Assembly (NCBI GenBank): GCA_018223105.1
Contig: JAAEYY010000001.1
Location: 84,476 to 148,475 of the forward strand
DNA from: a bacterium
GTDB taxonomy: Bacteria; Bacteroidota; Bacteroidia; NS11-12g; UBA9320
Length of the DNA stretch: 64,000 nucleotides
Direction of reading: 5' to 3'
Made by a program: the position numbers and the translations under genes. Below the pieces are notes generated by a model. That model worked only from the letters and a program-made list of their open reading frames with translations. It had not been told where the DNA came from and ran no database searches. Of the stretch, positions 24,754 through 50,694 are shown piece after piece. The first letter of the stretch is position 1. Each line of letters opens with the position of its first letter.

Positions 24754-25095
24754 ATGAGCATAAGACAAGAACGAGTAGCAAGGGAAATACAGCGTGGTTT
24801 AGCAAGAGTAATGGACCAAATGGCTCCGCGATTGCTAGACGATGTTATGGTGACGGTGATTGATGTGGATGTTACTGCCGATCTTGGAGTTGCTAAAGTA
24901 TATCTGGGATTTCTAAACACATCTGATAAACAGAAATGTTTAGAAATCCTTGATTTTCACAATAAAGAAATCAGGAAAAACTTTGCTTCCGGTCCTGGAA
25001 AAAGCATGAAAAAAGTTCCTGAATTTCGTTTCTTTTTGGACGATACCATAGACAATATCGAACGCATCGATAAGTTGTTAAGGAATCTAAAGTAA
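24754..25095 (+). CDS. rbfA: 30S ribosome-binding factor A
   Basis: A 113-residue RbfA with the KH-like fold: MSIRQERVAREIQRGLARVM, VTVIDVDVTADLGVAKVYLG and the C-terminal FRFFLDDTIDNIERIDKLL. It binds the 30S subunit during 16S rRNA 5' end maturation and cold adaptation. Length is typical for the phylum. It lies between a coiled-coil membrane protein and a FtsX/LolE-like permease, separated from the latter by one base. Confidence 0.92.
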   Translation: MSIRQERVAREIQRGLARVMDQMAPRLLDDVMVTVIDVDVTADLGVAKVYLGFLNTSDKQKCLEILDFHNKEIRKNFASGPGKSMKKVPEFRFFLDDTIDNIERIDKLLRNLK

Positions 25096-49518: not shown

Positions 49519-49583
49519 AACGAGGGCGAAATTTACCTTCGAGTTTTAAACGAGGGCAAAAAATCGCTATATTTGCCCTCGTT
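49519..49583 (+). promoter_or_regulatory. Operator-like repeats before the Fic gene
   Basis: AACGAGGGCAAA (49549-49560) and TTTGCCCTCGTT (49572-49583) form a perfect 12-base inverted repeat with an 11-base spacer. A near copy AACGAGGGCGAA (49519-49530) lies exactly 30 bases upstream of the first arm, in the same orientation, about three helical turns. The right arm overlaps a TATATTTG promoter box. This is a typical repressor operator layout. The Fic protein's own winged helix C-terminus could be the binder (inference). Confidence 0.6.
49568..49575 (+). promoter_or_regulatory. Candidate -7 promoter box for the Fic gene
   Basis: TATATTTG matches TAnnTTTG, 33 bases before the ATG. Its last four bases are inside the right arm of the inverted repeat, so a bound repressor would block it. 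Confidence 0.55.
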
Positions 49584-49608: not shown

Positions 49609-50694
49609 ATGTTTGATCCAATATTACCATATAACGATCTTCCACCTTTACCGCCAAAAGGAGAGCTTGAAACTAAAGAGATTCTAAAAAAAGTAATTTC
49701 TGCAAGTCGGTCGCTTTCTGAATTAAAAGGTGCTATTACCAATTTACCTAATCCTCTATTGTTCATAGACACAATTAATCTAAAAGAGGCAAAAGCAAGC
49801 TCAGAAATAGAGAATATTATAACTACGCAAGACGAATTATTCAAAGCAAGTATAGCCGAGAAGAAAGTACAAAACAGCGCAACAAAAGAAGTGATCCATT
49901 ACAAGGATGCGCTTTGGCATGGGTATCAAACAATAAAAAAGAAAGGAATTTTAACCACAAATACTTTTGTAGAGTTAGTTCAAATTATCAAAGAGAACAA
50001 TGCAGGGATTCGGAAAGTACCCGGAACACAATTGAAGAATCCTGTTTCGGGCGAAGTAATATACACACCGCCGGAAGGAGAAAATATCATTAGGTCTAAG
50101 CTTCAAGAGTTAGAAGAGTTTATTCATGCTGAAGATAATTTAGATCATCTTATAAGATTAGCATTGATCCACTATCAATTTGAGGCGATTCACCCATTTT
50201 ACGACGGGAATGGGAGGACAGGTCGAATTGTGTTACTTCTTTACTTACAGCTTACGGGATTGTTAGAAATTCCGGCCCTATACCTAAGTGGTTATATCTT
50301 AGAAAATAGAGGAAAGTATTATTCCTTGTTACGTGAGGTTACAGAAAAAGACAATTGGGAACCTTGGATCTTGTATGTTTTAGATATGATCGAGGTTACA
50401 AGCACTGCGGGGCGGAAGCTAATCAACGAGATTGAAGTCCTTATGTCTGAATTGAGCAATGAAATTCAAGAAGTACTTCCTCGAGTCTATTCCAGAGACC
50501 TTATTGAGGTAATTTTTCGACTTCCATACACAAAACGATCGTCGCTAGTAGATGCCGGAATTGGTAATGCTAAAACAGCCGGGTCTTATCTTCAAGATCT
50601 TGAAGAAGCAGGGATTATGACAAGTGAGATGGTGGGTAAAGAGAAACTGTATCTCAACACAAAACTGATCGCTTTATTAAAAGAAAGAAAGTAA
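49609..50694 (+). CDS. Fic family AMPylase (class II, autoinhibited)
   Basis: A 361-residue Fic protein. The catalytic motif HPFYDGNGRTGR is at residues 195-206 (H195 catalytic, full HPFxxGNGRxxR). An N-terminal inhibitory helix motif SSEIEN (residues 64-69, Glu68, [S/T]xxxE[N/G]) classifies it as class II, autoinhibited. The C-terminal 80 residues (IFRLPYTKRSSLVDAGIGNAKTAGSYLQDLEEAGIMTS) form a winged helix. Fic enzymes transfer AMP to Ser, Thr or Tyr hydroxyls. No separate antitoxin gene is adjacent. Preceded by an operator-like inverted repeat. Target unknown. Confidence 0.92.
   Translation: MFDPILPYNDLPPLPPKGELETKEILKKVISASRSLSELKGAITNLPNPLLFIDTINLKEAKASSEIENIITTQDELFKASIAEKKVQNSATKEVIHYKDALWHGYQTIKKKGILTTNTFVELVQIIKENNAGIRKVPGTQLKNPVSGEVIYTPPEGENIIRSKLQELEEFIHAEDNLDHLIRLALIHYQFEAIHPFYDGNGRTGRIVLLLYLQLTGLLEIPALYLSGYILENRGKYYSLLREVTEKDNWEPWILYVLDMIEVTSTAGRKLINEIEVLMSELSNEIQEVLPRVYSRDLIEVIFRLPYTKRSSLVDAGIGNAKTAGSYLQDLEEAGIMTSEMVGKEKLYLNTKLIALLKERK

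Follow-up and report, generated by a model that had tools for sequence, protein, structure and literature searches.

A putative three-dyad autoregulatory operator upstream of a SoFic-like fic gene in a bacterium of the phylum Bacteroidota

A stretch of 64,000 nucleotides from a bacterium of the phylum Bacteroidota (lineage UBA9320; assembly GCA_018223105.1, contig JAAEYY010000001.1, positions 84,476 to 148,475), below called the window, contains an array of inverted repeats upstream of a fic gene. Comparison with relatives makes it highly probable that this region is the autoregulatory operator of the gene, which encodes a SoFic-like class II Fic protein, and that Fic dimers bind it and repress fic. 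Since the operator covaries with the recognition helix of the protein and a rule fixed beforehand works on held-out loci, Fic itself very probably reads the DNA, as the initial annotation had supposed for its C-terminal winged helix; most likely it represses its own gene.

The centre of the array is a perfect 12-base inverted repeat, AACGAGGGCAAA at 49549-49560 and TTTGCCCTCGTT at 49572-49583, separated by a spacer of 11 bp. Exactly 30 bp upstream lies a direct copy in the same orientation, AACGAGGGCGAA (49519-49530). The initial annotation had described this arrangement over the promoter correctly, except that the copy differs from AACGAGGGCAAA by one mismatch. It had also spoken of a triple operator; there are indeed three elements, which are three dyads and not three single sites. 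The upstream copy is the left half of a 25-bp dyad (P1, 49519-49543), a role that had been missed, as had the third dyad. The left half of P1, AACGAGGGC, is intact; the right half, ACCTTCGAG, is weak and matches at 6/9 positions when either C or T is accepted at the final base. The perfect repeat forms the central 35-bp dyad (P2, 49549-49583), and a degenerate 25-bp dyad (P3, 49589-49613) lies over the fic ATG. The axes of neighbouring dyads are 35 bp apart, in the same layout as in relatives, and none of the three has a strand of its own.

Promoters of Bacteroidota have the -7 consensus TAnnTTTG. The putative -7 box TATATTTG (49568-49575, plus strand) matches this consensus and is overlapped by the right arm of P2; a scan with the sigma-70 consensus was uninformative (four sites versus 3.9 expected). 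A perfect 12-bp repeat with a spacer of at most 40 bp appeared in 0.055% of 20,000 sequences resampled from the 160-bp intergenic region by a Markov model; the whole window has one further such repeat, far from fic (24907-24949, 13-bp arms, 17-bp spacer). In the source genome (3.09 Mb in 49 contigs, 90% complete, to which assembly all own-genome counts refer) the search that the initial annotation had proposed found AACGAGGGCAAA exactly at two places, both in the fic upstream region. The full dyad ACGAGNGY-N17-RCNCTCGT has a single exact copy, P2, and three other places with two mismatches; the reversed pattern, used as a control, has 14 places with at most two mismatches.

The array is conserved among relatives. 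The first set comprised 110 distinct fic loci including the window; four exact duplicates were removed and, as only exact duplicate proteins were dropped, close relatives are counted more than once. Classification by the recognition helix alone yielded 51 class-A loci (xxKT[VASI]GxYL), 40 class-B loci (R[QK]TA[AS]), 12 near-B loci and six others, which were left out of class-dyad scoring; locus L087 has a frameshift before the helix. The class-A dyad AACGAGNGYAA-N13-TTRCNCTCGTT (35 bp) scores at least 16/20 in 47 of the 51 class-A loci, or in 48 of 52 with L087 counted; the absence of the repeats upstream of orthologues, which the initial annotation had named as fatal to its proposal, is thus not what is seen. 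Over all 110 loci the same threshold is reached in 48, and in none of the 44 provisionally labelled B (0.05 per 65 loci in shuffles). The class-B dyad NACRTGTCGA-N15-TCGACAYGTN, also of 35 bp, scores at least 14/18 upstream of fic in 29 of the 52 B and near-B loci.

The geometry is the same in both groups. A scan for 25-bp dyads around the central dyad peaks exactly at -30 and +40, which are the offsets of P1 and P3 from P2 in the window, with heights of 0.67 and 0.71 of the maximum in one group and 0.59 and 0.56 in the other, against a mean of 0.28 (standard deviation 0.07-0.08). A scan that uses no consensus found an excess of palindromes at odd total lengths, with the dyad on a base, in both groups. 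TAnnTTT occurs at the same position of the central dyad in 43 of the 48 class-A loci with the dyad (1/48 on the mirrored strand) and in 10 of 29 class-B loci (1/29).

For the analysis of covariation the set was enlarged, with 60 further loci of this phylum and nine from plasmids, to 179 proteins, 176 of which were long enough for alignment. Operators were located by a class-blind finder that uses geometry and a loose half-site shape, with the 95th percentile of shuffles as the cut-off; its base rules (A/T at 5, G at 6, A/C at 10) were chosen with earlier results in view, so that the general shape of the half-site was known in advance. It found an operator in 102 of the 176 loci, about nine being expected by chance; 84 operators lie upstream and 18 downstream of fic. 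Among these 102 loci, similarity of the operators correlates with similarity of residues 321-326, given the identity of the catalytic domains, with a partial r of 0.776; none of 2000 permutations reached this value, the largest being 0.087. In pairs with a catalytic identity of 0.42-0.50 the shared fraction of core bases is 0.87 with matching helices (47 pairs) versus 0.41 with differing ones (1306 pairs). When 115 six-residue windows along the protein were compared, 320-325 ranked first (0.807), ahead of two windows that overlap it (0.70 and 0.52); the median was -0.03. A structure model built after this analysis places the recognition helix at residues 321-333 (50569-50607, plus strand), overlapping the best six-residue window; it is the N-terminal residues of this helix that covary with the operator.

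The correspondence can be written as a helix-to-base code: KT[VA]G goes with GAGNGYAA, RQTA with TGTCGA, RKTA with TGTCCA (L081 and L102), R[PLI]TA with TGTAAAG or TGTATAG, RNTAS with TGCACA (L156), and RQAAG with TGTCGC (L104). Loci with an NTAR helix, among them L169, L172 and L185, form another helix class and have ACCTTAA- or ACATTAA-like repeats upstream, mostly below the threshold and missed by the base rules of the class-blind finder.

The rule, fixed beforehand, was tried on 43 loci not used before, taken from other genomes of the same class (two of 45 were dropped as already seen); as these genomes are relatives of those in the first set, the test is not fully independent. In 28 of the 34 assignable loci the operator of the own class was strictly the best of five, and in one, the single locus of class K (1/1), it was tied. 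A score of 11/12 was reached in 11 of 12 loci of class A and in 13 of 15 loci of class C (3.3% and 1.8% of shuffles, respectively).

The gene (49609-50694, plus strand) encodes a SoFic-like class II Fic protein of 361 amino acids, a putative AMPylating enzyme, with the domains Fic_N, Fic and SoFic-like_C. Its FIC active-site motif HPFYDGNGRTGR (residues 195-206; 50191-50226, plus strand) agrees with HPFx(D/E)GNGRxxR and is mostly invariant in 42 sequences. The inhibitory motif (S/T)xxxE(G/N) is intact as SSEIEN (residues 64-69; 49798-49815, plus strand), and S64, E68 and N69 are invariant in the same number of sequences. The C-terminal winged-helix domain PF21248 (residues 278-353; 50440-50667, plus strand) is matched with 82.7 bits at a cut-off of 27; in the model this region has predicted local distance difference test (pLDDT) values of 82-95 in blocks of ten residues, and both the helices and the two wing strands are present. 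The model as a whole (mean pLDDT 90.8) matches Shewanella SoFic, 3zcn_A, with Z 48.6, a root-mean-square deviation of 1.4 over 359 residues and 42% identity, and all 50 matches listed by the structure search with the whole model are Fic-domain proteins. The NCBIfam equivalog ProtAdlyltaseSoFic (NF046030) gives 431 bits (residues 2-359), below its curated cut-off of 550; the protein is therefore named SoFic-like and not assigned to that equivalog. The PADLOC SoFic profile gives 367.6 bits (E 2e-110), a sequence match only, so a function in anti-phage defence is putative.

We propose that a Fic dimer would bind the central 35-bp dyad through its C-terminal winged helices and, once bound, would cover the -7 box and block RNA polymerase, which would keep the level of the AMPylating, potentially toxic enzyme low until, presumably, an inducing signal relieves the block. 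The flanking 25-bp dyads, with axes 35 bp to each side, may take further dimers, possibly in a cooperative manner. Autoregulation by a class II Fic protein is already known for CccR of Yersinia pseudotuberculosis, a type VI secretion system effector that represses its own promoter according to the available part of PMC9755527; this precedent shows that autorepression by a class II Fic protein acting on an inverted repeat is feasible. As described there, CccR is, like the protein of the window, a Fic enzyme with a C-terminal helix-turn-helix and an N-terminal inhibitory helix and forms a dimer, and it represses itself by binding inverted repeats near its own -35/-10 elements, of which the window has a predicted counterpart, an inverted repeat over the putative promoter of its own gene. 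In contrast to the array, the operator given for CccR is a single dyad of 46 nt, AGATAATCAT-N26-ATGATAATCT, and the accessible text describes no multi-dyad array (PMC9755527). The window lacks this CccR operator, as both half-site and spacing differ; CccR and SoFic themselves share 29% identity over 45% coverage (PMC9755527).

SoFic proper (Shewanella SO_4266; PDB 3eqx, 3zcn) shares domain order and fold with the protein of the window. Its DNA binding is stated as not demonstrated in the accessible part of PMC10628234, and the available portion of PMC12249575 describes neither an operator nor DNA binding for SoFic or E. coli Sofic. The same source reports a downstream 47-aa antitoxin, AS1, for E. 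coli Sofic and that the wild-type gene resisted cloning with a single lac operator (PMC12249575). This agrees with a requirement for tight control, and the proposed autoregulation would offer one way in which cells could live with an enzyme whose wild-type E. coli relative is so difficult to clone. CbFic2 of Coxiella burnetii is likewise a Fic enzyme with a C-terminal winged helix-turn-helix; it binds DNA, and DNA affects its activity. Unlike in the window, its assays as reported used random DNA sequences and the excerpt names no operator (PMC10628234).

Several observations weigh against the proposed autoregulation. In the window P3 is degenerate, its right half matching at 7/9 positions and its left half not being recognisable, and a single rigid dimer would hardly fit dyads of both 25 bp and 35 bp. 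The four remaining class-A loci score 13-15/20, 23 of the 52 B and near-B loci are below the class-B threshold upstream, and the class-blind finder located no operator in 74 of the 176 loci, where some class-A sites break its base rules and others look truly absent. The permutations do not model the tree, and six-residue windows outside the winged helix also correlate, to a lesser degree (50-55, 0.49; 47-52, 0.48; 209-214, 0.46), which is what shared descent would give. The code has exceptions: the RQAAS proteins L098, L189 and L190 retain TGTCGA, L137 (RITAS) has TGATAAG, and L106 (RKTAS) has TGGGTA. The held-out test succeeded in 2/5 loci of class B and failed at the one locus of class N (0/1).

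The Fic protein might bind the array and yet activate its gene, or binding might mainly keep the enzyme inactive on the DNA. Some such role is conceivable because the C-terminal domain of EcSofic is placed differently from that of ATP-bound SoFic and is needed for toxicity, as reported in the accessible part of PMC12249575; we nevertheless consider it improbable, as the position of the central dyad over the putative -7 box fits repression best. Control of fic by a separate, unlinked host regulator that binds the array draws on the fact that autoregulation is inferred from comparison only. It is very unlikely, as the operator changes in step with the helix residues of Fic itself while the geometry is unchanged, and no known regulator gene was found among the adjacent genes checked; as the initial annotation had noted, there is no separate regulator next to fic, its neighbours encoding a protein sorted by the type IX secretion system, a 122-aa protein without a family match and a biotin carboxylase. 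That the repeats are an RNA structure in the fic leader (a hairpin or attenuator) is barely credible: the sense strand folds strongly (-33.9 kcal/mol for 96 nt, a value without shuffle comparison) and comparable repeats of some phages are located where related phages have a terminator-like hairpin (judged by eye), but a transcript from the promoter with the putative -7 box would contain neither P1 nor the left half of P2, both of which precede that box, and the covariation is with residues of the protein.

These phage repeats were found as exact class-A dyads in 71 viral stretches (L201-L271), versus six stretches with the reversed pattern and 14 when the spacer is lengthened by two bases; examples of arrays are L210:2760-2860 and L216:7283-7380. 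No Fic gene (tblastn, E <=1e-5) and no Fic C-terminal domain (best E 1.1) was found in the 71 stretches, nor PF21248 in 22 of these viral records searched over their full length, which may be fragments. Thirty-eight of the 71 come from a single phage family, in which the array is found directly behind a capsid-like gene. Three named phage relatives have a terminator-like hairpin, as judged by eye, at the place of the array, and the phage transcript there folds into a hairpin too. For the phage arrays a Fic decoy is thus no more probable than an RNA element; a site under the control of the host Fic is a further possibility.

Returning to operators of the fic genes, those downstream of the gene differ in their surroundings. 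The fic start lies within 40 nt of, or overlaps, the upstream gene in 7 of the 18 loci with a downstream operator, versus 1 of the 84 whose operator is upstream and 6 of the 74 that lack one. In a few relatives, which lie in type I restriction operons, the predicted operator stands after fic and before hsdR or hsdS. In L105 and L031 Pfam identifies the gene after the downstream operator as hsdR; the gene that follows is hsdR in L099 and hsdS in L086, neither of which is among the 18 loci, both scoring 15/18 in the class-specific scan, which is the only one that L099 passes, while L086 also passes one earlier finder, not the class-blind one. The next gene has no Pfam match in L028 and is another Fic gene in L081. 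In the window the operator precedes fic, and none of the neighbouring genes checked is a restriction gene, so the controller-like arrangement, an operator before a linked restriction gene, is not found there. RptR offers a partial parallel, being described in the available part of PMC12255303 as an autorepressor with three sites over the -10 box and linked to type I restriction systems; unlike Fic, it is an unrelated 79-aa protein that recognises the 6-bp palindrome TAGCTA (PMC12255303).

A search of open-licence literature (titles and beginnings of abstracts, with most subscription papers outside it) returned no report of a SoFic-type operator or of Fic control of hsdR. What appears to be new is the predicted SoFic-type operator, its conserved multi-dyad geometry, the covariation with the recognition helix and the placement before restriction genes in a few relatives. 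For the SoFic-type C-terminal winged helix the accessible part of PMC12249575 considers no role beyond that of modulating toxicity; from the comparison an operator can be proposed for roughly a hundred relatives together with a testable amino-acid-to-base rule, and it would link a few Fic proteins to the control of type I restriction genes. As a tentative conjecture, for which we see less than an even chance, SoFic-type Fic proteins across bacterial phyla could form a family of repressors that recognise specific sequences by a readable helix-to-base code, with the dyads in a fixed geometry; each would gate its own toxin and, where it is part of a type I restriction operon, also the restriction or specificity gene linked to it, in a controller-like manner; DNA occupancy might be coupled to the AMPylation state, so that lost binding would both derepress and arm the enzyme.

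The fic gene is patchily distributed: relatives were found in 5 of 97 near genomes (E <=1e-40) and in 79 of 395 genomes across the phylum (E <=1e-60). Among the loci with particular surroundings, L039, L089, L103 and L104 have a helix-matched operator 3' of fic with no close same-strand gene behind it, and in L105 fic also follows a TIR-domain gene. L194 as annotated has a methyltransferase, a Fic protein, a specificity subunit, a second Fic protein and a PD-(D/E)XK nuclease, the second Fic gene being downstream of the SoFic-type one.
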